Shown: piece by piece, positions 1,253-39,645 of the stretch
How positions within the stretch are numbered: position 1 is the stretch's first letter
Layout of the letters: the number at the start of each line of letters is the position of its first letter
Origin: Coprinellus micaceus
Taxonomy: Eukaryota; Basidiomycota; Agaricomycetes; Agaricales; Psathyrellaceae
NCBI GenBank assembly: GCA_951394405.1
Contig: OX596340.1
Location: 124,001 to 188,000 of the forward strand
Direction: 5' to 3'
DNA length: 64,000 nt
Position numbers and translations under genes: made by a program
Notes under the pieces: generated by a model
The model's database searches: none
What the model was told of the DNA's origin: nothing
The model's input: the letters and a program-made list of their open reading frames with translations, nothing else

Positions 1253-1260
1253 CGGGGGTG

Positions 1261-1341
1261 GGTGTCATCTGCCTGAGATGCGGTTGAAAGTAATGATTAT
1301 TTGCGAAGGCAGTACCCTATGAAGATCTATGTGCCTGGACT
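1261..1341. repeat. S8-flanking segment, copy 1 of a duplicated block
   Basis: This stretch lies between the S8 relic and the stop codon of six-TM gene A. It matches 5118-5198 at about three of four positions, starting GGTGTCAT and ending CCTGGACTA here and CCTGAACTA there. On the minus strand both copies share an intron-like end (CATCTCAG). It marks the start of a duplicated unit that also contains the six-TM gene pairs A/B and C/D. The match was judged by eye. Confidence 0.65.
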
Positions 1342-1347
1342 AGATGC

Positions 1348-2296
1348 TCATGGTCGGCTGAACGGTAGCAAAACACAACCCAGGCATGCAGCAGCAAGAA
1401 GCATGATCCCAGACGTGAGGAATAGAGCGAGTGGGACCACGAATATCAGCCACCACTCACTTTCGTTTGGGCCCGGTCTTAACCTCTCAAGGGGCCCCCC
1501 CTCACCGAGCAAGAGAGCCATTTCCTTCAGCGCCCACCAACACAGAATCGACGCTGGCCATCCCAGTAACTTCACCATGAATCGCGCTGACAACGATTTG
1601 TTGAGAGAGCGAGAGTGAAGGGAGAGAATATCTACGTACCTAGAGGTGCACAGTTTGATGTGAAGAACCAGGAGACCGTCTCTATGGGGGCGTCTTCGTA
1701 CCACCCCACCCAATACAAGCTAGGTAGCACAGAGAGTCAGCCTATGTGTGTCGAAAATCTTCGAGAGATAAACGTACCCCAATGATACCACCACACTATA
1801 AACCCACTCCATAGCTTTGGGTCCGGCTATCTCTCCATGGAAGGATAGATACGCCTTCGTAGTCCCAAAGCATATCGCCGATACAGTGACCAAAAGTCGG
1901 TAGGCGGTTATGGTTGGCGATCTCGGGCGGACGAAAAGCACACCGTTGCCCTTCGTGGGGTTGCATACGGGAATATAGTCGTTGTCATTGCTGAACGCAA
2001 CCATGATGCTGTCAATAAGGTCGGCCTGGAACAGCCATTCCGGCCTTGCGTTTGTCTCCCCGTCGTGGTACGAGAGGAAGAAGACTCTGGGGTTCAAACA
2101 TTTCAGCTTGTGACTCCACCACTTCGAGTACCGAACGTAGGTAGGAGACTCACATGAGGAAGAAAACGACACCAGCTAGCCACTCGAGAGTCACCGAAGC
2201 AGGTGGGCAAAGGGCTTTGGCTGTGCTCAGCGCAATCGTCGCCACAGACAAACCAACACGGTATACGGTCAGTTTCGGCCTCCATGCACGGTCCAT
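1348..2296 (-). CDS. Six-TM membrane protein of unknown function, copy A
   Basis: Four exons: 2296-2154, 2086-1778, 1719-1640 and 1586-1348. They sum to 771 nt and give 256 residues. All introns are GT..AG. I do not recognise a named domain. Hydrophobic segments suggest six TM helices. The protein has an internal duplication: a two-helix unit with YR, then T.KA, then EW, then VV occurs at about residues 11-45 and again at about 98-140. The exon pattern (143/309/80/variable) is shared by copies B to F. The start codon is placed by alignment with the other copies. It lies tail to tail with the S8 relic and head to tail with copy B, about 350 bp upstream. Function is unknown; a membrane location is inferred from hydrophobicity only. 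Confidence 0.8.
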
Positions 2297-5117: not shown

Positions 5118-5198
5118 GTGTCATAAGCCTGAGATGCCGTTGGAAATATTGATTTTCGCGAAGGCGGTATTCTATGAAGACCTATGTACCTGAACTAT
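5118..5198. repeat. S8-flanking segment, copy 2, at left edge of the insert
   Basis: Partner of 1261-1341. In copy 1 the matching sequence is followed within about 15 bp by the 3' end of six-TM gene A. Here the match stops after CCTGAACTA, and the equivalent next sequence (3' end of gene C) is only found at about 16883. This places an insertion breakpoint at about 5196-5205. Confidence 0.65.
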
Positions 5199-5217
5199 GT
5201 ATGCACACCCGATCGCG

Positions 5218-5251
5218 TACCCGGGTACCGTCACGTGACGCGGGTACCCCG
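5218..5251. repeat. Palindromic motif near left end of insert
   Basis: Two GGTACC sites flank the perfect 10-bp palindrome GTCACGTGAC. It lies within about 50 bp of the inferred left breakpoint. A similar GGTAC-rich palindrome lies near the other end (16295-16312). Possibly a recombinase or host-factor binding site; not tested. Confidence 0.5.
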
Positions 5252-6117
5252 CCTCCCCTGGCGCGCTGAGACAGCCCCACCGCCCGTTCGGGAAGGCTCG
5301 CCCCTGTCGCCCCCGTCCGAGGGCCCTCCGTCGCGGGGCGATCGAGCGTGCCAGGGTCGGCGGGACGCGTCCCGTATGGGGTGCCCTCCGAGCCGGCCCC
5401 CCAATTCCCCCGCTTGTGACCTCAACCTCCCGTTCTCCTAGTCCTCCATAGCTTAGAATTAGCGACTTATTTCCTGGGCCTAGTAGAAATCGATTTATAG
5501 GATGCTCCCTCTTTGAATGTGCCTGGGCTCGAAGGTGTTGGGAACTCGAAGGCGTTGGGAAGTGCCTTCCATTTTGGGACGGCTGCTGGATTGCAACCGC
5601 CTGGGCGCTTAACCGCCTTTACTTACTACATCCCACTCACTCGCTTGCCGTCTACGCTGTTGCCACGGAGAACAGCTCTGGTGGGCGCCTGGGCTTTCCC
5701 TGCAGCGCGCCCATGGCTTGTAGTTGTTCGCACGCCGGCGACTAGTCCACCAGCGGCATGGCAAACCTCACACCGCCCCTCCTGCGCTCCAACTTCCTGC
5801 TGACCCCAATCGTCACCGCCCAGAGCTCCTATGGACCAACAGGCCGTAGTTTAACCCAGCGAGTTGAGCTGATTCGAGTCGCGCACCGCTCGCGCCAAAA
5901 CGACTGCATTCAAACGCCAAGCACCGCTCACGCCAACACGACGGCACGCTTGTGGGAGGAGGGTGGAGTGCGAGAGGTGGCTGTTGGCTTCGCTTCCCCT
6001 TGCCCCCTCAATTCCATTGGGCATAGGTGCGTCTCGTCGGTCCTACCCTCGTCAATTAAATTAATCTACAGTAGACAACAGATATCGATATTTCGATTTA
6101 CTTTACTCGTCAACGAC
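5252..6117. other. No gene seen; GC-rich start
   Basis: The first 200 bp are strongly GC-rich and the rest is mixed. Open frames are short and show no conserved pattern. It contains the 3' flank of the XPG-type nuclease gene. Confidence 0.5.
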
Positions 6118-8002
6118 TCAAGCGTCATCGGTTAGGTCGATGACCTCGTCCTTCAGGACTCGCCTTTTTTTGGAAGGTCCTTCCCCTCGGTCGATATCGC
6201 CCGCTCGCTTGGCAGCTGGGGCTTCCAACTGTTCAAGGTCACGGAAAACGTCACCTGTGGGATCAAAGGATCCAAGGCCATCCTCCCCCATGCTCTGCAT
6301 TATCCCTGCCTCTGCTTTACCTTTACCCTTCTCTCCCCTTTTCGGCTTCTTTCCAATCTTCGCAGCCCACGCCGGCAGCATCATGGACGGTACCCAGACC
6401 TCGACGGTCTTCGCACCATTCAGAACCTCTGGGAATATACCCTCTCCAACCATCGCAGCAACGACGTCGAGCTCTCGCACATGGAGGCGCCCTTCGATTT
6501 GACCAGAAGAGGTCTTCAACTTCCGCACCTTCAGCCCGCACCACTCAATGGGAAGCTGGCGCGCAGGCGTTCCAAACTGGCTACTGGTAGCAGTCCAGCG
6601 ACATTGCTCCTAAGGACAGGTAAGTTCTGTTACAGCCAGATGAGAATTGGGTACCAAGCACTCACAGAAAATATCATCCTTAGCACTAGTCCTTCCCAGA
6701 GGTGGGCGCGAAGGACCTTGAGAAGGGCGGTCGCATCCGACCAGCCAAGTTGGTCACGACAGAACCGGATGATGGAGACGGGATTGGGCTCTTCAGGCCC
6801 CACCCGCCATTTGCGAGCATCAGGCTGGTAATCCGGGAATGTTGCAGAGGTGGCGGGGTTGACGTATTTATTGACGGCTTCGAGGGGCGGAAAGTTGGCA
6901 AGTCCTCTCAGTAGATTGTTCTGAACTTTGGTACTGAATAGAACCGTCTTGTTGGCGATCGCTTCGGAGACGCGACCTCTCCAGCCTTCAAGGAGAACCT
7001 CTCGCTCTTCATCATTCCGAGCTGTCTTCATGTCTCTATAGAGCGAGTCCCCGACCCCAGAAAGAGCAATCTCCGCTGCGCCGGCACGCCCGCAATGGGC
7101 GATGCCAGGGTCATAGTCGCCACCAGCAGCAAGCGCATAAACAAAAAGTCGGCCATGCGTAAACCCAAGACTCTGCGCAATATCAGCGGTGCTGAGTTGC
7201 TTAACATTGTCTGTGTTTTTCCGCTCGTCGTGAGTTAGGCTTTTAAGGAGGCCCAGACCATGTAAGCCTCAATGTGCCGCCTAGAAATGAGATACTTACC
7301 TCCTTAGAACTGTGGTCGCTCCAAAGACAAGAGCGTCTCCATCTTTGGTATATAGAGCATCAATTGAACCCCAGCGGTTCAACGTGGCCAGTTCAGCCTC
7401 GGCCTCACCAGGAGCCTGGAGTTTTGGTCTCAGGGCGCCGTTCAAAGCAGGGCGGGTAGCATACCAGGACATACCTGGTGGACAAAGAAGCCAAAGGATG
7501 CGACCAGTATCTTCGCGTCATTCACCCACCACAAGGGCGTGGTATTGACGAGAACGCCACGCTTGAGCGGGGGGCGATTGGGGCCGTCAAAGACGAAGAC
7601 GAAAGTAGCAGAGACCTTTAGAAGCTTGCACAGGCGGAAGAATAAAGGCCGGAACGGCCCACTTCCTGAGGCGACGTGCATTCCACTGGCCTGTGTCACC
7701 GCCACGCATTCGTCAAAATAGGTTCTTCATATCAGGTGGTCAAGGCGGTTGTCAGTCATATTTAGCAAGGTACACTTAGATGTGCAACATACCCCATGTC
7801 AATACCAATGATCGGTAATTCATCGACAATTGGGCTATCTGCAGTCCCTCGCATTCTCACACCTTGCAACGCCAGCTGAGAGAGAGACTTCGTCTGCTCG
7901 GCAGGGCTCACTAACTAATTAATTGACCATTGTGTTAGCCTGAGGGCGTACTGGATGTGGAACGCAGAGGCGACAAACCTTCCATAGCGCTGCGACTCCC
8001 AT
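6118..8002 (-). CDS. XPG/FEN-family structure-specific nuclease
   Basis: Six exons: 8002-7979, 7914-7793, 7724-7475, 7415-7300, 7239-6666 and 6609-6118. They sum to 1578 nt and give 525 residues. The start MGVAALWK matches the Met-Gly N-terminus typical of the FEN/XPG/GEN1 family. Acidic metal ligands are visible in order: GID47MG, FD95GP, PGE136AE138AE, KD157GD159AL, and the later GGDYDPG. The C-terminus (after about residue 380) is basic with KKRR and ends VIDLTDDA. Family members cut branched or flapped DNA; the exact substrate cannot be read here, and a GEN1-like resolvase is one possibility. The gene is intact and co-oriented with the dioxygenase and recombinase inside the putative element. 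Confidence 0.85.
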
Positions 8003-8321
8003 GTTTGAATGCTCCTTTTAGATTTAAACGAGTAATTGAGTAGAGATGGTGGTTTCCAGAAGAATAGAAAGTGTTCAACGCAAGTTAGACGTTATGTCTG
8101 AAGCCCGCTCCGCACCCCAAATAGGAGTGATCGGTGTCTTGTGACATTGTGGCGCTCATAAGCGCGCACAGCCTGACTTAGGCGCCGAAACCATGGAGGC
8201 GCCAGTGCCCCAACATTTCCCAAGATCAGTGCTAGATGACGATGTAGTGCACATTCTCAGATAAGCTGGACCTACAAAACATGTATATTACTCATCAAGC
8301 CCACTGGCGCGCTACTATACT

Positions 8322-10043
8322 TTACTCAGGCTCAGGCATGAGCGGAGCAGGTGCACCCTTGAGCAGTTCATCCATGGTAGACCACAGTCCAAGCCCCATC
8401 TCCCACCGAGTAGTTTTGTCCTCCATCATCTTGCGATATTTAGCCTTACTTTTTTTCTTGAGCTGCTTCTCGGTGCCAAATTCGTTATCGACATAACGGA
8501 ACATTGCACCAGCAGTGTATTGGGTAAATGAAGCACGTGTCTCACCGTCTTGAACCGGAATGTTTCCATGAGTGATGGTCGCAGACGGAAGGAGGACATG
8601 GGTGCCTGAGGGAAACTGAATGATAAGCTTGGGCTCCTTGAGGACGATATGTCCGCCCTTCGTGTAGTCGTACTTGCCGACAGCGTGAACAACACAGAAT
8701 CCGAAGGCGAGGTTTCGGCAGTCCCGATGGAAGCAAGTCGCGACTTGCTTCCCTGCGTTGCACGCTGCAGCACAGAAGATCGACCTTTCCCAGTTTGGGA
8801 ACAGGTCAGAGAGTCGATTGCGAACGGGGATGGTGTGTGCGTGGTAGTAGTTGTAGAGTTTTGGTAGGTAGAATTTGAACGAAGCTGTAAATGTGAGGTT
8901 CCGTAAATAGTGATGAACCAGGGGGCCAGGTCATAGAAGTTACTCACCACTTTGATGCAGCGCAAGCCTCTCCAGCTCAGCGCTTCTACGTAGCGCGTCG
9001 GCAGCCTCTGAGTGCGTGTCATTCCTCAAGTTGTATGGTCGTGGGGGGCCATGCCCCGCCCCGATTCCAATGCGAATGGCGGCAAAGCCTTCTCCGCGAG
9101 TGTGCGAGAACTCATCCTTCGAGATCCCGCCATTGGTGCCTAACTCAACCAGCAGTTCGGCAACTGCATTGCACGCTGCATCGTAGGTGGGGTCTTCAGG
9201 CTTGGGTACCCCAACGAAGAATATCTTCTTGGTCTCTTCGTCTACCAGCACAAGGGGCTCTCTACGCGATTAAACATCAGTGTCCATGCCAGGGTCAAAC
9301 CATGCAAAGACGCACCGCCCATCCCATCCAATCAACTCGTAGCCCTCATTGAGTAAGTCCTGCATGTTCAGCACGGACTGGTCCTTCCCGTCTGGGTTTT
9401 TTGCTTCATACCCGCTTGAGTTTGTCGGCAACTCATCCAGTGGAAGCGTGACCGGGACGGTTTTTGCTGTGTCGAGGAAGTGGGCCCCCGTAGGCGGGGC
9501 AGGTGCCTGGGTATTCTGGATAAAGGCCTTCGCCTGCTTGGACTTGCGTTGTGCGATCTTCTGCCTTTTTTTATAGGATTTGCGCCCCCCACCATGGGTG
9601 CTCGACTCGGCGTCCGCCGGGAAAGTGTGGGCTGTTGAAGGTAGGGGCGTCAAGCTCGGGCGCCTATCCTGACCCGAGGTCTCCGTCGCGATCGGAATGG
9701 TATCCTCCTCCACGTAACCATCGAAAGCGACGGCCTTGCGTTTGAGAGGCAGGGAATTGAATGCGCCCGCGAACTCTACGCAACCGTCTCCACCCTCCAG
9801 CTCATCCTCCTTGCGCATGTCCTCCTCCAGCGCCTCCTCCAGTTCTCTGGCCACGGCCCTTTGCAAAGCGGCATGAAGCGAGAATGAGGCCTTACACTGG
9901 AGGAACCGGAACGCGGTTGGAGAGGGAGCTACGTAAGCGAAAGAAGGCGCCTAGTGGCGAAGAAGAATAGGTGGTATGGGGTTTTGAGTAGAATGATAAA
10001 CAGGTTGAGTGCGGGGGCTTACCTCCTGGTTGGATGGCTGCAT
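8322..10043 (-). CDS. TET/JBP-like 2-oxoglutarate/Fe(II) dioxygenase
   Basis: Exons 10043-10023, 9950-9316, 9261-8948 and 8884-8322 sum to 1533 nt and give 510 residues. The C-terminal domain has an Fe(II)/2OG layout: H376-R-D378, a distal H429, and R440 before SFTQYTAG. The segment GGHIVL and the SFTQY.AG..RWV-like ending resemble the basidiomycete proteins described as TET/JBP-family DNA-base dioxygenases, which are often linked to transposons. Family assignment is from memory of the motif pattern. The N-terminal part has an acidic stretch and a Lys/Arg-rich segment (about residues 125-150), possibly nuclear or DNA-binding. An in-frame Met also exists at 10142. It could act on 5-methylcytosine; substrate and activity are untested. 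Confidence 0.75.
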
Positions 10044-10439
10044 TACGGCGAATAGTGTGCTTGAATGGGAGGAGAAGGTGAAGGAGACCGCTCGCTGAGT
10101 CCGCACCCCCGGGAATGAGGGCACTGGGCTATTGAGCTGCAAGTGGAGTATGCACTGGGTGCTGGAGCTGAGTGGGTTGGTATGAGGAGCTGGCCAACAG
10201 GCGACACGTAGAGGTACGACAGAAAATTTTAATGAAACTCAGAACAAGAGAATATTTGATATCAAATGGATATTTCCAGGAAATGAAATTCACCTACGGG
10301 TTTAAACGTCTACAAGAGGGCGCGCTTCCTCAATTTAGTGACCAGAGCGTCGCGACGCGCTAATTGCAGCCGTTTTGGGTGTTAAGCGCTGGGCGCGGAT
10401 ACTGATCAGGAGTTTGTTGGCGGGGTACAAACGGCCTTG
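10044..10439. other. No gene seen upstream of the dioxygenase
   Basis: Mostly AT-rich between 10190 and 10320, with a 14-bp perfect palindrome ATTTGATATCAAAT near 10256. It probably holds the promoter of the dioxygenase gene. No coding pattern was seen. Confidence 0.4.
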
Positions 10440-12560
10440 TCATGACACCGCCATCATCTACCCTCTTCCTCCGCTACTCTCCCTCTCCCTCCCTTCCACC
10501 TCTCTTCCCAGCACACAAAACACGTAGTAGGACTACAGGGGGGCCTTCACAGCGTCAACACTCCCCACTCGGCAACCCCACCCCGATGTCCTGTCCCGAT
10601 GACAACTCACATCCCCTCCCCGAAACGCAACCTCCACACATCCGCTTGCCCAGCCCTCACCCATCTCCCGTCCATCCTCTCTCTGAAGACCTCGCACTTG
10701 ACACACACACGCACACACCTGGACGTCTCCAACCCCCGGGCCCTACACCTTCAACGCCTCGAATTCAACACTTGGCATCCCGATAACGCGACCCCAGCCT
10801 CACCAAATGCAGGACGTTCGGCGCCTGGAGTAATGAGCTCCAGCAGGGGCTAGAACGGAACGGCTGGGAAACGGAGGACGGAGGCTCGAGGGTGGAGCGG
10901 ATGGGACGAGGCCAAGTTGAAATGAAGCGAGGGAGAATGGGTAGGATAACAATGGAACGGCGAAGGCCAAGGTAAGCCAAATGTAATCAAGCCTATTCAT
11001 ACTTACTTACCCTTCAACTTCTTTCTAGCCACAAACACCCACTTCGAACGCCGTGGACGTCGACCCTGGCAGCCGCGCACAACCTTGTCTTTGACGAGCT
11101 TAGACGTCGATGGCGGCCCCCATGCAAGTGCAGACGCCCGATGGGCTGGGCGGGTGCTCAACGCACCTCCGCAGCGCCTTTGAGGGCGCGCTGAACGCCG
11201 ATGCCCTCAGCCTGTCCCGCCCCTCGGTCTCGTCGGTGACACGCACGGCGTCAACACTCCCACCCAGTAACCCCACCCCGATGCCGGCTCACGTCCCCTC
11301 CCCGAAACGCAACCTCCTTCGACCTCGACTTTGACGAGGTTAGACGTTGGCGATGGCCTTCACGCAATCACGGACACCCAACGGGCTGGGTGGGTGCTCG
11401 ACGCTCCAGTCTCGACAACGCCTCTCTCACCCACCTGCCACTTGTCCCCACCCCCACTCCCGCGCCAACGCCCTTGCAGCACCCCTAGACAGCATCTACC
11501 TCGCCGTCCCACCTTCCCATCGCACCAGACGCCCACCTCAACGTCCTACCTCCCCCATCACACCATGTCCATCCACCCCCGGACCTTTCCACCTCGATAG
11601 CCTCCCTCCTCCCCTCCTTCCTCGGTGCACTATCCTAAAGCCAGACTGGCGCGTTCTGCCTCATGCGAACTCGCCAATCGCACTAGGCAACCACCGCACC
11701 GAGCGACACCTCACTGAAGTCGGCAAGGACGCCGAACGTGCTAGACGCCCTCACCGAACGACCACAACCAACACCTCCCCAGTCACCCACCTATCCCAGT
11801 CACCTTTCCCCGACGCCCGAACGGCAACGCGGAACGGGACCGACACACGGATTTGGGATGCCGACGCCGACGTCCGATACCCCACTTCCACACCTCCCTC
11901 TGCACTCTCCCCTCTACGCCTCAAAGGCGCGCCTCCGACTACCGCCCACACCTTCTCCCCCTCCTACTCATCCTCCACAAGAGTCGAAGCCCACAAACGC
12001 CCGCCCACCCCACACGCACACCTCCGACCTCGTCTTTGACGAGCAATCGTGCGACGCACCAGTCCCGACAGGACGGAGCCATGCACGATCAAATCGGGGT
12101 ATGGTGTGATGATGGCTCGACAAAGCCTCTCTGCCTCGGGCCTCAGGACCACCTTCCTCAGTGCTCGACTTCGCCTTCCCCCACCTCTGACTTCCACACC
12201 ACCTTCCCCAGCCCAGGTCCGTCTCAGCGCTGAATTCGAACGACATCCCGATCAAGCAACCCGAAACCAAATCGACGCAAGGCTTGGGCAAGACAAACGA
12301 CTTGACGAGAGGAAGGAGGGGAGAGGGATGGGGGAGACGCGAGTAAAGAGGACGAGGGAGGAGCCAGGCCGAGGAACGACCACGACCTCCCTCTCTCCGC
12401 CAACACCAGGAGACCATGGTATCACTGGCACGAATACCGTGACGGGGAGGAGGGCGGTGGTATGGGGAGTCGAAGACCCAGAAACTGGGCGACAAGTTAA
12501 GCGGAATGTCGCCGCACTTGTCGAATCACTACTAACTCACCTCATGCAGAGTTTGGCACG
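10440..12560. repeat. C-rich low-complexity tract with degenerate direct repeats
   Basis: About 2.1 kb with very strong strand bias: long runs of CCAC, CTCC and CACC on the plus strand. Long open frames occur in several phases, as expected when stop codons are rare, so I call no gene. Clear direct repeats occur: 10549-10635 matches 11244-11315, and 11081-11163 matches 11322-11404. Both of the latter contain TTTGACGAG followed by TTAGACG. TTTGACGAGC recurs near 12034. The tract lies between the recombinase and the dioxygenase and may be a decayed tandem array or recombination-prone spacer. Confidence 0.65.
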
Positions 12561-12796
12561 GTGACGGCGACTCTCTCGCCATGGGCGATTCGGAAGTGGG
12601 TAGATGAGGGGGAGGTTAGTAGGAAATGAAACGAAGGAAGGACAAACCGAGGGAGGGGGTGGATGTTGGTAGAGGGCTGGATGCCGCTGGATGCCATGGG
12701 GACGATGGTAAACAGCTCAGCGAGGAAGGGGGAGAATTTAATACCAGTGGCATTGTAGGTACATACCAGGTACATAGATGATCGAACACATCTATT

Positions 12797-15700
12797 CTAC
12801 ATCCCGCATTGTGATGACTCGGCGAGGATTGTGGCCTTCTGTGGGTCCTTCAGCCAGTCTTGAAAAAGCCGAGAGCTTCGGAGGTGTTTCTGTGGGGAAG
12901 AGGGCGAGATTGGGTACTTGCTGTTGAGAAACTTCAGGGCAATGTCAGCGTCCCAGCTGTTCTGTTGCACCAGACCTTCAATGAGCCGGACGACCTTCAT
13001 GCGCCGTGTCCATTCGTTCTTGATCGGGCGTTGGTCCCGCTTCCACTTGGCATCCCAGACCGCAACAAGTTCAAGAATTGAAAAATGGTGGCCAATACCC
13101 ACCGTGTACTCCCTCCAGATGTCGTCAAGAGAAGGCGACGAACCATCACGGGGTTTCCAGTACTTGAATTCAGGGACCCAATTGTGCGCTCTGCCGTAGC
13201 TCAACCATTCAAAGGACTGGAATCGAAGCTTCTCTGCAGAGAACCGCTCCTCGAGATTTGTGATGGCCTGCATCTGAAGACCCCGCTCCTCCGGGCAGTC
13301 GCTGAGAGGGAATGTCTGTGTTGAGTACACATTTCCCTGGCCACTGACAACCTTCGTCATCATCAATGATGGCATGGTGGGTATCGCCATGGTTGGCGGC
13401 TGGTGACATGAAGAAAAAGGCGAAGTGATAGGCACGGCGGCAATGGGAGTGTCAGTGACAGTGGATGGCTTCGGCATAGGACATGCAGAGTGCACTGGAG
13501 CCGGCCTCTCAACCACTTGTTGGGTCACTGACAGGTAGTTGAGTCCATGTAACTGCAGTCTCCATATGGGGGATAATACGCACCAATTTGAGAAATAGCT
13601 TTGCGCTTGGTAGCCCTGCTACCAGATGAAGCGAGAACTTGAAACGCGCAGTTGACGGTGTCTTGATATCGCTGAAGCATAGTCTGGTGCTCCAGCTGTG
13701 CAGCGTGCATTGCAGAAAGCTGGGCAGCATACGCCTGCACCAGAAGCTCGGGGATGTTCTGGATGTTGTCCCGGATATTAGCCTCTGCTTGCGTAATGAT
13801 TGCACCAGCTTCAGCAGCAAAGGATGCGAAGGCAGGAGTGTTGAATGGCTCGTACTTGAGGATGGGGAGGTCTGTTCCATGCTTTGAGCTCAGCGCCACA
13901 ACATCCTGGAGGAGGACGCGACGAAACCAGCGCAAGACGCTCAAGAAAGAGGCCAGGCTTTCGTCTCTTGCGGGTCGGCCAAGCTGATCGCATCTGGCCT
14001 TGTAGGTGAGCTCCTCCGTTTCGATCCACGGGAATATTTGACACTCCAGGTGCTCAGGTGGATCTGTTAAAATTGGTTTAGCTTGCGGCACCCAGCTTGA
14101 GACAGTACGGCTCACTCAAAAAGTTGCGTGCAAGGTAGTAGTCGTTCTTCTGCTCACCGTTGAAGTGGGCTGTCGCGAGCATGGAACCCACAGGTAGTGT
14201 CCTGTCGTAAACGGCACGGAAGGAGCCCGCTTGCGACCAAAGACCAAGACTTTTCACATCCTCCACAGAGGCCCCGAATTCGATGCCATCTCTAGCTCCA
14301 ACCATTCGCCCAGTATGGGTGACCTTCTCACAGAAGACGTCAAAGTCAACCTTCACTGCGTTGAAGCGATCACGATGGGCTTTATTAATTTATTCATGTT
14401 AGCGAAGAAGACCCAAAACCTCGAAGGCGACAGGTTGCTCACCTTGGGGTGTCAATGGCTCGGTCGGCGATTTTTTGCTGGGGAAGAGTAGCAGCTCATA
14501 CCAGCTACGGAACCCAACATCAGTTGCGCGAGGGCTATCGAAATCGGGTGGGAAATCGGGCTTTGGATGCTTCGCAACGTGAAAGGTGAAGTACAGGTGG
14601 AGGGCTACTGCCCCCACTGCACACAGCTCAGGATGGCGGTGCCGGAAGGTACCATGGAAATCAATCCGACCATTCCTGTTGGTCTTTCCCTGGTTGCTCA
14701 TGATCACCAAAGCCTACAAGCACAGTGTCAACTGCTGACGTCTATTAAAAAGCGAGATAGTGAATAAACTCGCCTTCTCTTTGTGATCAAGACCCATATT
14801 AATCAAGGGAATCTCATGGAGGAGAAGGTCGGACAGGAGGAGTGGTCGCACATTGTCACCTCGCATAGCGGTGCTGGTCGAAGTCAGCAGCATGCCGCGA
14901 TCACGGCTGCGCAACCAAAGCTGCTGCTCGGTGCCGGGTTGCTGGAAAAGACCGAGTGCAACGTCCTGAAGCTGCTCGCGAGTGAAGGTTTCTGTTTGTA
15001 TGTGTGTTAGTGAAAGGAACAGCCCGAAAAAAGGGAGACTTACGAGATTTTGCTCCAGTAGCCTTCAGACGCTGGGTATCCCGCTGCCGTTTGGCCTCGT
15101 TTTCTCGAGTCGCCTTCATGATGTCTTGTATCAGAATGTGATCTCGAAGCTTATTTGCTTTCGTCCCAGCTTCAGTGAAACGATAGTGCTCCAGAGAGTT
15201 GATGATCTGGTCCACTGAGATGGCAGAGAGCGTCGTGTTGGGTATTGGTTGCTTATTGGGTCCAATCTGCCCGATGCAGCAGTGAGAATTTGAATGGTGG
15301 TCTACGAACGGGAGCTACATACAATGGGGCGCGTCGTAACATGGTCCAGGAAAAGTGCCACCTTCACTGCGGTAATGGGGAGTGCAGGCGTCGGGATGAA
15401 CTGGCTCCCTCCCTTCGCTGCTTCTAACTGGCGGCGGGTCTGGTCTCCTTCCCACCATGTCTTGTACTCATTGAAGTGCCGGGTGTATGCGAGTTGGGTG
15501 TTGTTCTTTCTGGTGCGTCGATCATTGCGGTCCTTTCCTTGCTGCTTCACATCCGCAAGAAGGGCCGGATCGATTAATTCGTCTTGGACAGATGACATTG
15601 GGACCAGGGGGTGAGATGCCGGGGGCATCCCGTATGGGACAGAAACGGAGGGCACGTCAGGGGGCTTCCCAGTCAATGGGTCTTCGTTCATGGTGTAGAG

Positions 15701-16022
15701 GAGATGGGGAGATGTCGTTTCACTTGATTCTGTCTTGAGAGAGCGGCGTGCTCTCTTCTTCTGAGGGCCAGGAGTGTGGGTGACGGCTCCTGAGGCTATG
15801 TTTGAGATAACAGAGTGAGCGTGCCTGGACGGTCGGATAACACCAACACCCTTACCCTCAGCCCCAGGCTCAGCCAATGGGACATCGTCGGCATTCCGCT
15901 TCTTGCTCCCCGACATGCGGACATCTGAAAGTTTTGGTCAGCTAGCCTGCTCGCTTAGCAAGGTCGACCCGGCATTGGCAACAACTTCGTGTAGGCGTTT
16001 GGGACTCACCAGACTCGTCCAT
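12797..16022 (-). CDS. Crypton-type tyrosine recombinase
   Basis: Eight exons: 16022-16010, 15924-15323, 15266-15044, 14991-14774, 14713-14443, 14355-14116, 14063-13584 and 13527-12797. They sum to 2778 nt and give 925 residues with no lesion. The catalytic set is visible: R323 (STAMRGD), H456-T-G-R459, W482 and Y492 (FRAVYD). Residues about 787-847 (EWLSYGRAHNW...WREYTVG) look like the GCR1_C-type DNA-binding domain usually found at the C-terminus of fungal Crypton recombinases. The N-terminus is basic and low in complexity. Intron 4 is a GC-AG intron (AAG|GCGAGT at 14773); only this choice keeps the frame. The gene lies at the right edge of the 11.7-kb block, reads inward, and probably mobilised it. 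Confidence 0.88.
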
Positions 16023-16059
16023 GATTAAAGAGACATAGAATACATAGAGTGGGTTAGAA

Positions 16060-16883
16060 TAATATTAAGGCGAGTTCTCGCTCGCGATGAAATACAGCGG
16101 AAAGGGAGGTGGAAATGAGGAATCAAGGTGAGACGCGCTCGTTAGGCGCCCTGGCGAGGCCATTATGTAATCGAGTTTGATTACCATTTTGGGGGTTCGG
16201 CCGGTGCGCCCGCGTGGTAGCTGGTGGCGCGTCAAATGGCCCACCTGGTTGCCCAGGGGGAAAGAAATACATGCCAAGGAATCGTATATTCGTACCTGGG
16301 TACGTACCCAGGCGGGAAAAGGGAGGTACCCGAAGGTACCCAGCGCCAGTGAGTACCCCTGCATATGCTCTATATGCTCACGATCAGGTGAATGTCGCAA
16401 AACCCCCGAATGCCTTATCGGGGAACCCGCCCGATAAGATCACCCGGGTCACCGATAAGGTGCCCGATAAGGTAGCTCTCGGACCGATAAAGCAAGGCGC
16501 CCTCATCAGGCACGGCCAACCCTTATTCGCCGGGGCGGGCACCGGCTAGGGTTAAATTTCCCATCAATATACCCTCCGCGAGCTGCTAAAAAGCCATTTA
16601 CCAAATCCAGGGGTTGCGTCGACTGCATCAAGCGGCCTCAAATCGAATTTCTACACAGGAATCGGCCTCACCAAGCACCTATCCACACCTCGTGCGCCTA
16701 CGCAGTTGCAGCGAGTGGGGCCGGGCGCCCCACGGCGCTGGCAGCTTGGCGCGCCGAGCCGGGGCTATTTGGCCCCTAGCCTATAAGGGAATGGGTCCCT
16801 TAACGGGCTTACGCATCTCCTATCGGGTGCCCGATAAGGCTAGGCCAGCCTGGCGTGCCTTAGCGGCCCGATAAGGCTCTCGG
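16060..16883. repeat. Terminal region with CCGATAAGG-type motifs and a perfect palindrome
   Basis: Upstream of the recombinase start. It holds the 18-bp perfect palindrome CCTGGGTACGTACCCAGG (16295-16312) and several (C)CCGATAAGG motifs: an inverted one near 16413, and 16430, 16452, 16463, 16484, 16829 and 16867. GTGCCCGATAAGG followed by TAG occurs at both 16460 and 16826. These look like subterminal binding sites of a mobile element. Related GGGCGATAA sequences occur at 61319 and 61381. The last few bases also supply the C-terminal codons of gene C. Confidence 0.6.
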
Positions 16884-17838
16884 GGGATTTCCGACAAACG
16901 GTAACAGAACACAACCCACGCATCCAATAGCAAGAGCCACACAAACGACCAGCATTGCAAACGAGGGATACAGAACAAGTAGGAACACAACCATCACAGA
17001 CCACAGGCTTTCCTCTGGACCCACTTTCAACGTCTCAACGAACATCTCAACAACCAAGAGGATCACCTCCTGAAGCGCCCACCCTAACAAAACCGATGCT
17101 GGCCATCCCAGTAGCTTCACCAAGAATCGCGCTGACAATGAGTTCGATCTGTTGAGTGAGCTAAAGTGATGGGAGAAGATATTCACCCACCTAGAGGTGC
17201 ATAGTTTGCTGTGAAGAACCAGGAGACCGTCTCTATGGGGGCGTCTTCGTACAACCCCACCCAATACAAACTACATTTTCCAGATGGTCAGCGAATCTGG
17301 CCCACCAGCGTTTGGGATATGCGCCCACCTCAACGAGACTACTGCACTGAAGACCCATTCCAGAGCTCTAGGTCCGGCTATCCCTCCACGGAACGAAAGA
17401 TAGGCCTTCGTGGTCCCGAAGCATATCGCCGAGAGGGTGACCAAAAGTCGATAGGGGGTCATGGTCGGGGATCTCGGGCGAATGAAGGTGGCATCATCGT
17501 CCTCCGCGGGGTTGTATACGGGAATGTAGTCGTTGTCATTGCTGAACGCGACCACCACCTTATCAACAAGGTCGGTTTGGAAAAGCCATTTTGGCCTTGC
17601 GTTTGGATCTCCGTCGCGGTAGGAGAGGAAGAAGACTCTGGAGATTGAAAACTTCAGGTTCCAAATGATTCGAGTAGCATGAATCGGAGACTCACACGAG
17701 GAAGAGAACCACACCAGTTAGCCATTCGAGAGTCACCGAAGCAGGTGGACAAAGGGCCTTGCCTGTGCTCAGCGCAATGGTTACCGCAGACAGACCTACA
17801 CGGTATACGCTCAGTTTCGGTCTCCATGTACGGTCCAT
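16860..17838 (-). CDS. Six-TM membrane protein of unknown function, copy C
   Basis: Exons 17838-17696, 17637-17329, 17270-17191 and 17131-16860 sum to 804 nt and give 267 residues. It is the closest relative of copy A and has the same first three exon lengths (143/309/80). Both internal two-helix units (YR..KA..EW) are present. Gene A ends PFSRP, but C continues PFVGNPPRALSGR, and the added codons come from the CCGATAAGG-type repeat at the edge of the 11.7-kb block. The insertion appears to have removed the original stop and supplied a new one. Function unknown; membrane protein by hydrophobicity. Confidence 0.8.
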
Positions 17839-21329: not shown

Positions 21330-22005
21330 GTCATCTCAGGACCCCCGACATCCCACCCAAATGCCTCTGTAAAGTCCGGATAAAAACGGCCCCAAATTGG
21401 CGAACTGCCTTTAGCCTGTCCGGATAAAAACGCCTCGGATTTGGCCTGACGCCTGGCACCAGCGTCCGGATAAAAATGGGGGTCATGGCGATGGGTCTCT
21501 TCCCGTCCGGATAGAAACCCACGCCTGCCAGCCGCCCGAGCCCATATATAGCTGAGTGCCGGTAGAGTTCACAGGTTTTCACCCACTTCCAGACCATTTG
21601 AGGCAAGGTTGCGTGCCGCGCCTGAGGCGATTTGGAGCTGAATTTGGTTGGAATCTGGATGGTTTCCGAGCCACCACGCGCCCAAATTTGGTAAGCGCCC
21701 CCTTGACACGTCGTCTTGGGAGGATAATCGTTGCTTCCGCTAAGTTCTTCAACGAAGTACGCCCTCAGACTGGGCAGCGATGTATTAAACACGTTCAAAC
21801 GCGGCCTAAAGCGCGCAGCGCAGCGAAAAACGAATATTCTGGCGATTTTCAGGCCTTTTCCAGTGTCCGGATAAAAATGGCACGCTCGGGGGGCCTCTGC
21901 AAATGTCCGGATAGAAATTGGGCGAAATCGTCCGGATAAAAATGGCCCAAAACCGGCGATTTTTACAGAGGCATTTGGGTGGGATGTCGGGGGTCCTGTC
22001 ATCTC
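21330..22005. mobile_element. Non-autonomous DNA transposon (8-bp TSD, hAT or KDZ type)
   Basis: The element spans 21338-21997 (660 bp). Its 36-bp terminal inverted repeats are perfect (left starts AGGACCCCCGACATCCC; right is 21962-21997). The 8-bp target duplication GTCATCTC is intact at 21330-21337 and 21998-22005. Seven direct copies of GTCCGGATA(A/G)AAA start at 21374, 21418, 21464, 21505, 21865, 21905 and 21930, clustered at the two ends. No transposase is encoded. An 8-bp duplication fits hAT and also the KDZ/Zisupton group; I cannot choose between them. Perfect repeats and duplication indicate recent insertion. Confidence 0.9.
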
Positions 22006-31385: not shown

Positions 31386-31832
31386 GGCGCACGTTTAACA
31401 TGGATGCTTTTTGCTTCTTTGCCCCTTGAGAATATGAGTGACCCAATCTTATACTATCCCGATACGGCCCTGAGTCTTCGGGCAAAGACATACGCTGACT
31501 CTCCTTTCATCACGAAATCTAGACAGACAACGGGCAGGTTTTTGAAGTATTACTTTGCAAGGCATATCCTCTCCCCAACCCTGAAAAATATACGAGAGGA
31601 CGCAAGCCTCCACAATGCGTTAGCTAGAGGCAATACGAGGGAGGTTGTACCTACTCTTACGAAGAGCAACACGTCGTGAAGCCCACGGACGATAGTGCGA
31701 CGTTACACTAACACCCTTCTCAGTACCAACGGAGGCGCTAAAATATACACTATCCTTCCCTATACCCTATCCAACCATATACGTACCAAGTGGTGGTCTC
31801 GACGAATATTAGAGACGGGCAAAAAGATCAGT

Positions 31833-31919
31833 AGCCCACCGCGAGGGTCGAACTCGCAGCCTTCAGATGCCGCCTAGATGATAAGAGTCTGACGCTCTAT
31901 CCGATTGAGCTAGGCGGGC
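31833..31919 (-). tRNA. tRNA-Lys(CTT) with short intron
   Basis: Acceptor GCCCGCC pairs with GGTGGGC, the D stem is GCTC/GAGC, the anticodon stem is TCAGA/TCTGA, and the T stem GCGAG/CTCGC holds TTCGACC. The loop reads CT-CTT-A followed by a 13-nt insertion directly 3' of the base after the anticodon, the standard place for a nuclear tRNA intron. Discriminator T. 87 nt including the intron. Confidence 0.9.
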
Positions 31920-32334
31920 CGATGTCCTCGATTTCCCTGTGGCCGACTCGGGCGACAGCGAGAAAGAACGGGGATGTTGGAGAGGTAGAGGAGGTCGAGA
32001 GAGGTGTCAGTGGGTGGAGTCGAGCCAGGGATACAGGTACAGGCGGATTCACGGCGTTGATCCGGAACTGGCAGTCGGGCGCTTAAATCCTGTGTATTCC
32101 CGTGACCTCGTCACCCCAAGCAAGGGGCGCTGAATGAGCCTTCCGGAGGTATCCAAATGTTTCCACTGCGCTTTCCAGTACCGTTCTTCGCAATCCCCAC
32201 AGAACCCACCCCTCCCCTTCTGTCCCCTTCAGCTTACTTGTGCCTCTTGCACATCCCGCCATGCGCTTCCGAGAAGACTTTATTCAATATCATATCCGCT
32301 CGACTCTACGTAAGTGTGACATCGACGCATAAAC
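31920..32334. other. Intergenic, no gene seen
   Basis: Between tRNA-Lys and six-TM copy F. Purine-rich at its left end. No coding pattern, repeat or RNA gene recognised. Confidence 0.35.
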
Positions 32335-34868: not shown

Positions 34869-37800
34869 GTATGTTGCCACGTCTCCTTGTGATGGGTCAA
34901 GCTGAGCACAGGGTGAAGGGATCTCGACATCGCAGAAGAATCGTACGGTTGTGGGGTCTCCTTGAGAGTCCGGTTCGAGGATACAGGGAGCATCGACGAC
35001 ATTTGCCAGTCGATCGAGGCGCTGAAGAGAGCAGTGGACTTATCACCAGAGGACAGCCCAAACCTCCCCACGTGGCTCAGTGACCTCGGATCATCCATGT
35101 GGTGTCTGTTCGAGGAGTCTGGAGAACTTCCGGATCTCGCAGAAGTAATATCGGCACATCAGAGGGCTATCAGTATCAGCTCTCCGGGTCGGTCTGACCT
35201 CCCTGACATGCTCAGAAACCTCGGGGTGGCTCTGGAGGCCCGTTTCGAGGCTACCGGCGACTTGCCCGACCTGGCTGAGTCCATCGTTGCTAATGAGACG
35301 GCGGTAACCCTGTCTCCCGAAGACCATCCAAATGCCCCCACAGTGCTTCAAAGTCTTGGAGCGCAGCTTCAGTCCCTGTTTATGGAGACAGAGGACCGTG
35401 TGGACATTAACAAGGCCATCGCTGTCCAAAGGAAGGCGTCTCAGCTCACAGTCGAGGATCACAGCTACCCCATGACCATCCTGAACGACCTCGCGTTCTC
35501 GTTCTTCCTCCGCTTCGAGCGCACTGGTGATATGGCCGACCTTAGCGAGGCGATCACCACCCAGGAAAACGCTGTGAGGATCGCTCCCAAGGACCACGAA
35601 CACATTCCCAGCTTGCTGAACAACCTCGAAATGTTTCTGAGCTCCCGTTTCGAGCGCACGGAAAACCTGTCTGACCTTTCCGAAAGTATTTCTCTGAAAC
35701 GAAGGGCAGTCAGCCTCACCCGCGAGGATTACGAGCACCGCCATGTCATACTCCGTAGCCTTGCTACCTCGTTACAAAGTCGATACGATCTCACTGGCGA
35801 CTTACCCGATATTACCGAGGCGATATCCTTACAGCAAGACGCAATCAAGCTCAATCCTGAGGATCACCCAGACATCCTCAGTGACCTGGGAACGTCACTG
35901 AAGTATCGGTTTGAGCGGACGAGCAATTTTGCGGATCTTACCGAAGCAATATCGGTGAAGCAAAAGTCTGTGGCCCTTATCCCCGAGGGTCACAGCGTCC
36001 TCCCCAATATTCTCAGTAGCCTCGGAGAATGCTACGTCGCCCAGTTCAGATGCACCGGTGACCTTTCGGACCTCTCCGAGGCAATCTCGGTACACAGAGA
36101 GGCAGTAGGGCTCGTCTCGCACGGCGACGCCATCCTCCCTATCATAACCAATAACCTCGCGCTCTCACTTCAGTATCGCTTCCAACACACTGGCGATCTG
36201 TGCGATATCTCTGAAGCAATCTCAACTCTCCAGAGGGTCGTTGATATTACCACGAACGGTGACCCAAAACTTGCGACGTACCTCAGTAACCTGGGGGCGG
36301 CGTACCAACATCGCTTCGACTACAGTAACGATCTGGATGATATAGCCGAAGCTGTGGGACTCCACCAGAAAGCGGTTACCATTACCCCCACAGACTACGC
36401 CGACCTCCTCGCATGGCTCGGCAACCTCAGTGCATCGTACGGGCAACGCTTTAACTTCACCCGCGACCTTCCCGATGTCACCGCAGCTATCTCGGCCCAG
36501 CGGAGAGCGGTGGAGCTTACTCCCGAGGGGTACGAAGCTCTGCCTACCCTCCTCAGCAACCTGGGAACACTGTTAGCCTCTGGATTTGATTCCACTAGAG
36601 ACCTATCACACATCGCCGAAGCGATATCTCTTCACCAAAAAGCTGTGAGCCTCACTCCCGTGGGTCACGGAAGTCTCCATACAAGGTTTAACAACCTTGG
36701 GCTCGCCCTCCAGTCACGCTTCGAGTACACTGGTGACATGACAGATCTCACAGAAGCGATATCTGCCAAAGAAAAGGCGGTGGACGTCACCCCTGACGGG
36801 AATGCACACCTCCCAATCAGGCTCCAGAACCTGGCTTGGTCGTTGTATGCCCGTTTCGAGGCAACAGGAAGTCACGATGATTTGGACAAGAGTATTGCCA
36901 TTGCCAGGCGTTCGGCAACCTGCGCGTCTGGTTCTCCCCGCTCGAGGGTGAGCTCTAGCACATTCTGGGCGCTGACCTTGTATCATCACTACCCCGACGC
37001 ACCCGACGTTATGTCGGCGTTCGACGCCGCATTGAATTCGGTTACTTTACTGGCGGGCCTTGACCAGACACTCCGACGACGTTACGCACGGCTTCAAGAC
37101 GGCTCGACGGTAACTCTGTCCCCTGTTAAGGCTGCGGCAGCTGCCTTGGATCTTGGAAGAACAGAGAAAGCTGTGGAGTGGTTGGAACAAGGACGCTGCC
37201 TCGTTTGGAACCAGGTCAGCGTACTGCGGACGCAAGCCGACGACCTACGTGAGCATGATGCCGAGCTTGCGCGTCAGTTCACAAATCTCGCAGAACGCCT
37301 CGAGAAAGCTGGGGCATCTCAAAACCGATCGCGTGGCGACATGTCACTTTCAGAGAAGATCTCATCGGAGGGCGAGGCTGACGCTCACTTGAAACTTTCG
37401 AGAGATTGGGATATCTTACTCGCTCGGGTTAGAGCTCTCCCTGGCTTCGAATCTTTCCTCCAGCGATCATCTTGCTCGGCACTCCTGCGACACCTCCCAA
37501 CGGCAGGGCCGATCGTTCTCATCAACGTCGACGAATCCCGATGCGATGCACTTGTGCTGCTAATTGGGCAAGAACGGCCTCTCCACATACCCCTCCCCGA
37601 TTTCTCCTTAAAGATGGCCAAGGAATATCATTCACGATTGGTACGGCAATTGGGGACTCACAACCTTCGTGGGCGAGAAGGAAATGGCGATTCTGATGAA
37701 AGCGCCCCAGACAGGGGACTGGGACTCTACCGAAGGAAACGCGGGGTCGACGGATCTATCACGCACGATATCCTTCGAGGGTTATGGACTGGCCTCGTAA

Positions 37801-38718
37801 AGCCTATTCTAGATTCTTTGAAGTTCCAGGTTAGCCGCATCATCTCACCTTTTATCCACGTCGCTGTGCTAAGCCATGCCGTAGAAATCGGACCAAGCGT
37901 CTGAAACGCTGCGCCCACGAGTCTGGTGGTGCCCCACGGGACCGTTGACGTTCCTCCCGATCCACGCCGCAGGAATATACGAAGGGATGGAAACGGAGTG
38001 TACCCTCGACTACGTGGTCTCGTCGTACACTCCGTCCGTTGGTGCTCTTACCTCCCGACTGACGAACGATCACCCAATCGACCAGGGTCTCTCGGGGCTG
38101 TTCCTAAAGAGCCAGCCCAAAGTACCCGGAGCCTTCACGATTCCTGGGACAACAGAGGAGGTCAACTCCATCTACGGTACAGGCCAGGCGATTGGAGTTA
38201 GAGTTTCAAAAGTCGAGGGGGACTCCTTGACTGTCGATGGATGTCTGCAAAGCATGGAAGAATTCAGCAGCATCCACCTTGCATGCCATGCATCCCAGAG
38301 CAGCGACGACCCCCTTCAGAGTCGGTTTCATTTTCAGAAGGGCTCCCTCGAACTCGAGACAATCATCCAGAGAAACCTCAGAAACGCCGACGTCGCCTTC
38401 CTCTCTGCATGCCAGACAAGCTCAGGCCACGAGTCGCTTTCAGATGAAGCCGTCCATTTGGCAGCGGGGATGCTCGCAGCAGGATATCGTCGAGTCATCG
38501 CTACCATGTGGATGATTAGCGATCGCCATGCGCCAGGCGTCGCGAAGAATTTCTACGAATACCTGTGGAGCCGTAGGAAGGAGGGGTCGGGTAGCGGTTT
38601 CGACGGGTCGCTTTCGGCGCATGCCCTCCATCACTCCATCCAGCAATTGAGAGAGCAACTCGACAACTCCGAGAAGTCGCTCCTTACGTGGGCTGCGTAC
38701 GTTCACTACGGTTACTGA
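34855..38718 (+). CDS. TPR-CHAT protein (caspase-like peptidase domain)
   Basis: Exons 34855-34868, 34919-37829 and 37885-38718 sum to 3759 nt and give 1252 residues. The small first exon (ATGGAGAATCACAG) is supported by an equivalent in the paralog. Residues about 18-690 form some 15 repeats of about 50 residues with the pattern RFE.TGDL.DL.EAI..Q..AV.L.P, a TPR-type array. The C-terminal CHAT domain has the expected catalytic His1110 (HLACHAS) and Cys1151 (FLSACQTS). CHAT peptidases belong to the caspase/separase clan. In bacteria TPR-CHAT proteins act as activated proteases; the fungal role is not established, and a regulated proteolysis or cell-death role is inference. Confidence 0.87.
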
Positions 38719-39645
38719 TTCTCCGCTTTCCACACCCTTTCTCTCGCTGATAAGAACTTCATATTCTCTCCTCCTCTATCGACCCATACTACTTCGGCTC
38801 TGCTTCTCTATGCACGATAGGCCATTCCATCGGACTCCAGAATGTGTTCTTTCAGATGCTCTCTCACTTGTACTTATGTTAGCCTTCGTTCGCCTTTGGT
38901 TATTGCTTTACTCAACCGTTGCAGAGATAATCATATAATGGGTTTGGAGGATCGGGTCTCTAAATGTGTCCGCGAGACACACGCCCGCGAGATTCTCAAC
39001 TTTGATGCAAATAGCAATAATGACTTCCCAATAATTAGAGAAGGTTCAGAATCAAGAAGGCCGCAGCTATTTAATGCTAGTTTCGTCTATTGCACCGGCT
39101 TCGGTATACTCCGAGCCCACGACCGACCTGGAAGCCCCTTCCCATATCCAGCGCAGTGGAAATAGTAGGCGCCCAAGGTGCTGTGCAGGACCCTGTTCCA
39201 ATACGGCACATGGTGCGGGATTCAATGCTCCTGTGCCGAAAGGGTGCTGGCCTTCCCACTACGAACAGATCTCTGTTGAATGAATCTACGCCTGATCACC
39301 AAGCGAAGTTATTCTCGCGTCGTGAGAGAGCACGCCTCCCATAGAGTTTTCGGGAGCCAAATGAAATCTATAAATTCAACGAGGAACGTGCGTCGTGCAA
39401 TGGGGATAAACACTTCACCCAAGTGGCCCCGATCGTGCCGCTGTAGAGATAGCAGGAGAACACCTGTTCTCCTCCTGGTAAGGCTGTGTACGTCGCCGTT
39501 AAGCGCCCGTAGCGGTGCCTCGTGGCTTTTCTGTATATACCAAGGCACGGCTTTGTTGATCGCCTTAACCTCCCGCAGTGACCTACCGCCGCGTACTTCG
39601 TCAATAGCTCCCCCAACGGAAATAGAACAGGACTTTCCTTGAAAG
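38719..39645. other. Intergenic; second half is duplicated promoter DNA
   Basis: 38719-39090 shows no gene. 39095-39645 corresponds to 34270-34854. This shows that the CHAT-only gene arose from a duplicate that kept its upstream region. Confidence 0.55.

Follow-up and report, generated by a model that had tools for sequence, protein, structure and literature searches.

A probable CryptonF-type transposon of Coprinellus micaceus with a TET/JBP-like dioxygenase gene and an XPG/GEN1-like nuclease gene as recurrent partners

For Cryptons, a circular intermediate and recombinase-mediated insertion have been proposed (PMC3212892; this and the other papers cited are drawn on for the accessible parts of their text). 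Transposons that carry TET/JBP genes form another described group, of which eleven lineages have been listed (Kojima 2025, PMC12730594); in the accessible main text of that paper, the terms 'Crypton' and 'tyrosine recombinase' do not occur. Here we describe an 11,175-bp element in a 64,000-bp stretch of Coprinellus micaceus DNA, hereafter the window, which corresponds to C7:124001-188000 of a 50.3-Mb assembly of 17 contigs (C labels denote contigs). The element holds genes for a tyrosine recombinase, a TET/JBP-like dioxygenase and an XPG/GEN1-like nuclease. With a probability of about 0.8, we read it as a CryptonF-type transposon whose recombinase has gained two lasting partner genes, a fixed helper set, and not as a Starship. 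No description of a Crypton-type element with TET/JBP and XPG cargo was found in the literature, within partial coverage. Since the eleven TET-bearing lineages listed include no Crypton, a Crypton carrying a TET/JBP-like gene appears to be a new variant.

When the left end of the element was used as a query, a near-identical copy was identified on C11, which aligns at 99.6% over 11,183 columns (window positions 5197-16375 in common). The flanks of the C7 and C11 copies diverge immediately at both ends; both edges are sharp and the flanks are unrelated. A copy of such identity on another contig, in unrelated flanks, shows that the element is mobile. As the two copies occupy unrelated sites and have identical ends, we conclude that the 11,175-bp unit moved recently, as a single piece. 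Separate insertion of each gene was rejected, because the C11 copy holds the entire unit. The element interrupts one half of a segmental duplication that had been proposed in an earlier note on this DNA and that our alignments bear out: direct repeats lie at a spacing of 15.5 kb and, when 5199-16896 is omitted, one 2,440-column alignment with 73% identity spans the junction. The other half of the duplication retains a paralogous empty site, which differs from the joined C7 flanks (ACTAT/ATGCTC) by a single base, in the core. Collectively, the C11 alignment and this empty site fix the element at 5199-16373. The note had placed the left breakpoint exactly, and our spliced models and domain matches confirm its three same-strand genes and its inward-reading recombinase, which lies at the right edge. 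Its right end, at 16883, has to be withdrawn: the element ends where the C11 copy stops, and 16393-16896 is a different repeat. What had been taken for a single 11.7-kb insertion is in fact two independent ones, of 11,175 bp and 504 bp, which together account for all but 6 bp of the earlier 11,685-bp block.

Models for all three genes were built by hand from reading frames and splice signals alone. They predict three complete spliced genes on the minus strand (Table 1), with introns of 52-72 bp that are GT-AG save one GC-AG. None has an internal stop in the C11 copy, where the products differ by 5, 3 and 1 amino acids. The recombinase gene begins 457 bp inside the right end and is the first gene at that edge, reading inward (leftward). 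Its product matches Pfam NDC10_II (E=3.9e-22) and, C-terminally, GCR1_C (E=2.6e-9, 37.7 bits vs a cut-off of 23), and no other Pfam family above its cut-off. Residues R316, K355, H457-x-x-R460, W483 and Y493, which we take to be the catalytic residues of tyrosine recombinases, are invariant in four aligned sequences, the window protein and three outside relatives. Among about 8,000 candidates scored, the best outside match was in Ephemerocybe; a search for relatives in viral contigs gave 44 pattern matches, none confirmed. A profile search returned DotD alone (E=0.72), which was taken as chance, and the single-sequence search gave none. Judged by its domains, the combination of NDC10_II and GCR1_C is the architecture of a Crypton (CryptonF) and not that of the DUF3435 captain of Starships. 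The recombinase had no DUF3435 (PF11917) match at E<=0.1, and a genome-wide DUF3435 search, run without a positive control, gave 0 matches.

The dioxygenase carries the motif H376-x-D378 ... H429 ... R440, so that a TET/JBP-like gene with HxD..H..R sits inside a unit with defined ends. In 28 aligned homologues (of 42 found), the HxD, the distal H and the R after it show little or no variation; ten of the 28 match Pfam Tet_JBP (best E=1.8e-4), and one homologue carries the source name JBP1/TET oxygenase. The HxD differs from HxE, which is given as the PE-type hallmark in the accessible text of Kojima 2025 (PMC12730594). Single-sequence matches of the dioxygenase to a ribosomal protein and a phosphoribosyltransferase (E=0.004 and above) were taken as chance. 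The nuclease matches XPG_I (E=1.9e-18), and its best match in the PDB is 5cnq/6grb, 'Nuclease-like protein' (E=6e-30), followed by GEN homolog 1 (5t9j; E=3e-10); 5cnq is presumably fungal GEN1. The C-terminal part has diverged and has no match to PF18380, which we take to be the GEN1 C-terminal domain. For both proteins, the best outside matches among about 8,000 candidates scored per search were in Coprinellus.

Table 1. Positions of the features in the window, counted from its first base.
Feature	Position	Strand	Size or structure	Details
Whole Crypton-type element	5199..16373		11,175 bp	From the C11 copy and the paralogous unoccupied site in the upstream duplicate
Tyrosine recombinase gene	12797..15916	-	7 exons, 926 aa	Spliced model, one GC-AG intron; exons 15916-15323, 15266-15044, 14991-14774, 14713-14443, 14379-14116, 14063-13584, 13527-12797
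TET/JBP-like 2-oxoglutarate/Fe(II) dioxygenase gene	8322..10043	-	4 exons, 510 aa	Exons 10043-10023, 9950-9316, 9261-8948, 8884-8322
XPG/GEN1-like nuclease gene	6118..8002	-	6 exons, 525 aa	C-terminal KKRRVLK and VIDLTDD motifs; exons 8002-7979, 7914-7793, 7724-7475, 7415-7300, 7239-6666, 6609-6118
Spacer	10044..12796		2.75 kb	No recognisable gene; short islands shared with the C5 element
Left junction core	5195..5198			CTAT in C7; GAAT in C11; CAAT in C5
Right terminal core	16370..16373			CTAT, within the conserved terminus CTCTAT common to C7, C11, C5, C9 and C1
Left subterminal motif	5223..5250			GGGTACCGTCACGTGACGCGGGTACCCC; identical in C11, 2 substitutions in C5
Right subterminal motif	16267..16311			ATACATGCCAAGGAAT ... 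CTGGGTACGTACCCAG
Paralogous unoccupied site in the other duplicate half	1260..1365			ACTAGATGCTC at 1339-1349
Separate 504-bp repeat	16393..16896		504 bp	TGT..ACA termini, AA on both sides; copies on other contigs

At least five recombinase loci were found in the genome (best candidates scored), on C7, C11, C5, C9 and C1, and each of the five has a TET gene, an XPG gene or both in its vicinity. The order recombinase, dioxygenase, nuclease is found at C7, C11 and C5, and is the same wherever both cargo genes occur. The TET gene lies 739-4,066 bp from the recombinase at four of the five loci, and the XPG gene 653-4,887 bp from it at three; at C5 the latter distance is 13.7 kb, with a probable 7.7-kb retrotransposon intervening. 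At C9 the recombinase is accompanied by the first part of the dioxygenase (residues 2-218), with reverse-transcriptase-like frames about 1 kb on (by eye), and at C1 the nuclease follows the recombinase after 653 bp, without a dioxygenase. Over the matched codons, the recombinase of the window shares 43-48% identity with those of the other lineages. The recombinase-side terminus, with ATGCCAAG and CTCTAT, is kept in all four lineages (C7/C11, C5, C9 and C1), and its palindrome GGGTACGTACCC at all loci but C1. The first half of the right subterminal motif is kept in C11, C5, C9 and C1 (0-2 substitutions) and the second half in C11, C5 and C9 (0-1 substitutions). The left end is kept in C7, C11 and C5; its subterminal motif was not found at C9 or C1, allowing up to 5 substitutions. 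The insert at C5 (C5:3872345-3880092) splits the dioxygenase gene. Its 599-bp direct terminal repeats are 99% identical and it has long reading frames, by which it is probably a recent long terminal repeat retrotransposon.

Dioxygenase genes are found at 18 loci in the genome (49 matches grouped by place). About 1% of the genome lies within 20 kb of a dioxygenase locus unlinked to a recombinase; against this background, linkage at four of five recombinase loci is not chance. Five of the remaining dioxygenase loci have a KDZ transposase match no more than 10 kb away (107 KDZ matches; about 2.5% of the genome is that near to one). These are C5:4274601, C13:1886474, C1:3064003, C2:1635139 and C2:1713013, and the association of TET with KDZ genes has already been published. 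A tree was built from 27 catalytic segments, of which 10 belong to this genome and 17 are drawn from the 42 outside homologues. It pairs the C7 and C5 dioxygenases (support 0.79). The copy at C10:982k and Coprinellus P0002 come next; the set of four has support 0.97, but the node that joins C10 just 0.05. The four KDZ-near copies included (<=10 kb) fall outside this group. No recombinase or nuclease match was found within 1.5 kb of C10:982k.

The ends of the element also bear on how it may move. The terminal direct repeat is CTAT at C7 and AT alone at C11 and C5. The left core reads CTAT in C7, GAAT in C11 and CAAT in C5, and the right core is CTAT, which indicates that the cores of element and target can differ. 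Inverted matches between the end regions are at most 16 nt and none is at the tips, and terminal inverted repeats are therefore absent. When the right and left ends are joined they read TGCATAT-GCTCTAT-GTATGCA, where the arms, compared by eye and not by computation, match at six of seven positions around a 7-bp spacer. The joined sequence resembles a recombinase site; in C5 the arm match is limited to the four positions adjoining the spacer. The ends contain CpGs, nine in 5199-5260 and six in 16260-16373.

Comparison of the C7 and C5 lineages, with the pieces read with stops skipped, gave a nonsynonymous rate (dN) of 0.22 and a synonymous rate (dS) of 2.4 over 476 codons for the dioxygenase, and a dN of 0.24 and a dS of 1.2 over 510 codons for the nuclease. 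For the recombinase, dN was 0.48 and synonymous sites were saturated. By these rates, purifying selection has acted on both partner genes ever since the C7 and C5 lineages separated. Forty base differences, 33 of them transitions and 7 transversions, and one 4-bp gap distinguish the C7 copy from the C11 copy. Twenty-seven of the 33 transitions are at CpG, where 24% would be expected from the share of C and G in CpG (p=4e-12), and 28 are of the C-to-T type on the C7 side, on the assumption that C and G are ancestral. The CpG observed/expected ratio of the element is 0.84, vs 0.92-0.94 in three other window stretches. The CpG bias of the differences is the trace expected from methylation and suggests that the element has been methylated; it says nothing of demethylation.

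From these data we propose how such an element could work. The recombinase would cut at the CTCTAT and GTAT ends and circularise the unit, and the circle would be inserted at short AT-containing sites through recombination inside the 2-4 bp core. The GEN1-like nuclease would act where core and target differ, resolving the Holliday junctions left by the recombinase; such an activity would be useful to an element whose core can be mismatched with its target. By analogy with other TET-bearing fungal transposons, the dioxygenase might oxidise 5-methylcytosine on the element, at its CpG-containing ends and promoters, and so counter silencing by methylation. The gene content suggests an element that is self-mobile and equipped to escape host silencing. 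A bolder version, which we think quite unlikely, makes the three enzymes a single module, with the recombinase performing the first strand exchange at unmatched cores, the nuclease resolving the junction and the dioxygenase demethylating the ends so that the recombinase can bind. Such a module would fit the mismatched cores (GAAT/CAAT left vs CTAT right), the presence of CpGs at both ends and the fact that the partner genes have been kept for long. If it were true, a tyrosine recombinase would have been freed from target homology and transposition would be coupled to demethylation.

The explanation that competes best accepts the mobility and holds that the dioxygenase serves the host or acts on another substrate (6-methyladenine or thymine modification, or no catalysis at all), and not against silencing. 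CMD1 and JBP, of the same superfamily, have other activities, and CcTET acts on both 5-methylcytosine and 6-methyladenine (PMC12730594, accessible text). Where CcTET has Gly331 and Asp337, the dioxygenase family has N and C, the positions being located by offset from HxD and not by a real alignment. On the other hand, the CpG-biased decay points to cytosine methylation of the element, and the purifying selection is seen within the element. We regard this explanation as the less probable one, with a real chance of being right.

A plain Crypton that came to lie beside host or KDZ-derived genes, all copied jointly by segmental duplication, is very improbable in our view. TET-like genes are indeed common in this genome and 5 of the 18 loci are near a KDZ match, which lends the idea some plausibility. 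Against it, the C7 and C11 copies are sharp-ended with no shared flank, the same neighbours recur in four diverged lineages with conserved recombinase-side termini, and no scored KDZ match lies within 200 kb of any of the four recombinase-linked TET loci (the KDZ list being a lower bound).

The earlier note had pointed to a Starship-like layout; a true Starship would here be a basidiomycete element with a DUF3435 captain and exchangeable cargo. A recombinase located at the edge and reading inward, with cargo behind it, does resemble the Starship layout. The note further held that Starships are described from ascomycetes, a limit that no longer applies, as eight have been reported in the basidiomycete Tremella fuciformis (PMC13066641, accessible text). 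Its mobile recombinase element with dioxygenase and XPG-type nuclease stands; its likening to Starships does not, as the recombinase is of Crypton type, matching NDC10_II and GCR1_C and not DUF3435. Nor is there varied cargo behind the same ends: the same two genes recur at C7, C11 and C5, in the same order where both are present, with subsets at C9 and C1. In addition, 11.2 kb is under the lower end of 15 kb given for Starships (PMC12134995, accessible text). Membership was rejected on the recombinase family, and we give the Starship reading hardly any credence. The note's remark that Cryptons normally carry only the recombinase holds for the most part, the exception being some oomycete Cryptons with a C48 peptidase (PMC3212892, accessible text). 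Finally, a composite in which a DDE transposase drives the movement and the Crypton recombinase is carried along, for which the Mariner-Crypton fusion MarCry of Fusarium oxysporum offers a precedent (PMC3212892, accessible text), is just as hard to credit, given the lack of inverted matches at the tips, the absence of a target duplication over 2-4 bp and the absence of any Pfam domain in the five other open reading frames (ORFs) scanned.

Several observations nonetheless weigh against a CryptonF-type element with two lasting partners. The TET assignment consists of motifs and weak family matches: the dioxygenase itself has no Pfam match at E<=0.1, Tet_JBP is absent at that threshold in 18 of the 28 homologues, and a profile search of the family against solved structures gave no match. 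Cargo is incomplete at C9 (dioxygenase truncated, no XPG) and C1 (no TET), and the left ends of these two were not found. Of the three insertions for which both ends are known, two have a core repeat of just AT. The empty site is a paralogous one in the same genome, and a search for the C11 empty site elsewhere in the genome with the joined flanks returned only the two flanks themselves. Linkage outside this genome was not seen, and the Ephemerocybe and Coprinellus locus tags neither show nor exclude it.

The 504-bp repeat starts 20 bp past the Crypton-type element and is outside it. Copies at 96-98% are found on C1, C12 and C9 and stop at the repeat's own termini; C8 and C12 hold copies at 69%, and three further matches are partial. 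All six copies inspected, including that of the window, start TGTC and finish GACA, and five (window, C1, both C12 and C8, not C9) have matching 2-bp flanks. TGT..ACA termini and a 2-bp target duplication are described for PlavakaA (PMC12730594, accessible text). Because its termini and flanks match these, the repeat looks like a non-autonomous element of PlavakaA type.

Within the Crypton-type element, no Pfam match was found in four ORFs of the spacer. Islands of about 45-130 bp in it (window 10400-12700) are 78-93% identical to C5, vs about 71% in most aligned coding DNA, and similar islands occur in one short stretch at C4:2577460-2577927 (74-94% identical); they are possibly regulatory or recently exchanged. 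Elsewhere in the window, perfect 37-bp inverted repeats flank 588 bp at 21337-21998, with nearby direct repeats that share TCCGGATAAAAA, and this resembles a small inverted-repeat transposon. A TPR-repeat reading frame followed by two CHAT-domain frames (37945-38718 and 40238-41011) occupies 34962-41011. At 31831-31920, on the minus strand, ARAGORN placed a stop-reading tRNA (anticodon TTA), probably a false call.

Taken together, the reading of this unit as a CryptonF-type transposon with lasting partners would add a recombinase-driven class to the transposons known to carry TET/JBP-like genes and would provide an example of a Crypton that carries a constant group of genes. A resolvase-like nuclease and a possible demethylase, both retained under selection beside a tyrosine recombinase, would allow a direct test of Crypton integration and of escape from silencing, for which two near-identical copies with all genes open are a usable starting point. 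The CpG-biased differences are an independent sign that the element is methylated.

The element shares with CryptonF (Crypton-Cn1 and relatives; Kojima & Jurka 2011, PMC3212892, accessible text) a tyrosine recombinase with C-terminal GCR1_C and the lack of terminal inverted repeats. CryptonF termini have direct repeats of 4-6 bp; those here are short as well, with four bases (CTAT) at C7 and two (AT) at C11 and C5, so that the core repeat is 2-4 bp compared with 6 bp in most fungal Cryptons. The cargo differs: the elements described there carry the recombinase alone, the C48 peptidase or a Mariner fusion, and the accessible text mentions no TET/JBP or XPG gene for them. Like Kyakuja, Zisupton, Plavaka, Helitron and the other TET-bearing fungal transposons (PMC12730594, accessible text), it is a Basidiomycota element with a TET/JBP-like gene, which by analogy with them probably acts against methylation silencing; unlike it, they are moved by DDD/E transposases or the Helitron HUH enzyme. 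The nuclease has in common with the GEN1/Yen1 Holliday-junction resolvases an XPG_I domain, conserved acidic motifs and its best structural-database matches, and is set apart by its place within a mobile element and its diverged C-terminal part. With Starships the element shares a recombinase at one edge that reads inward with further genes behind, and it differs from them in recombinase family, size and the constancy of its cargo.

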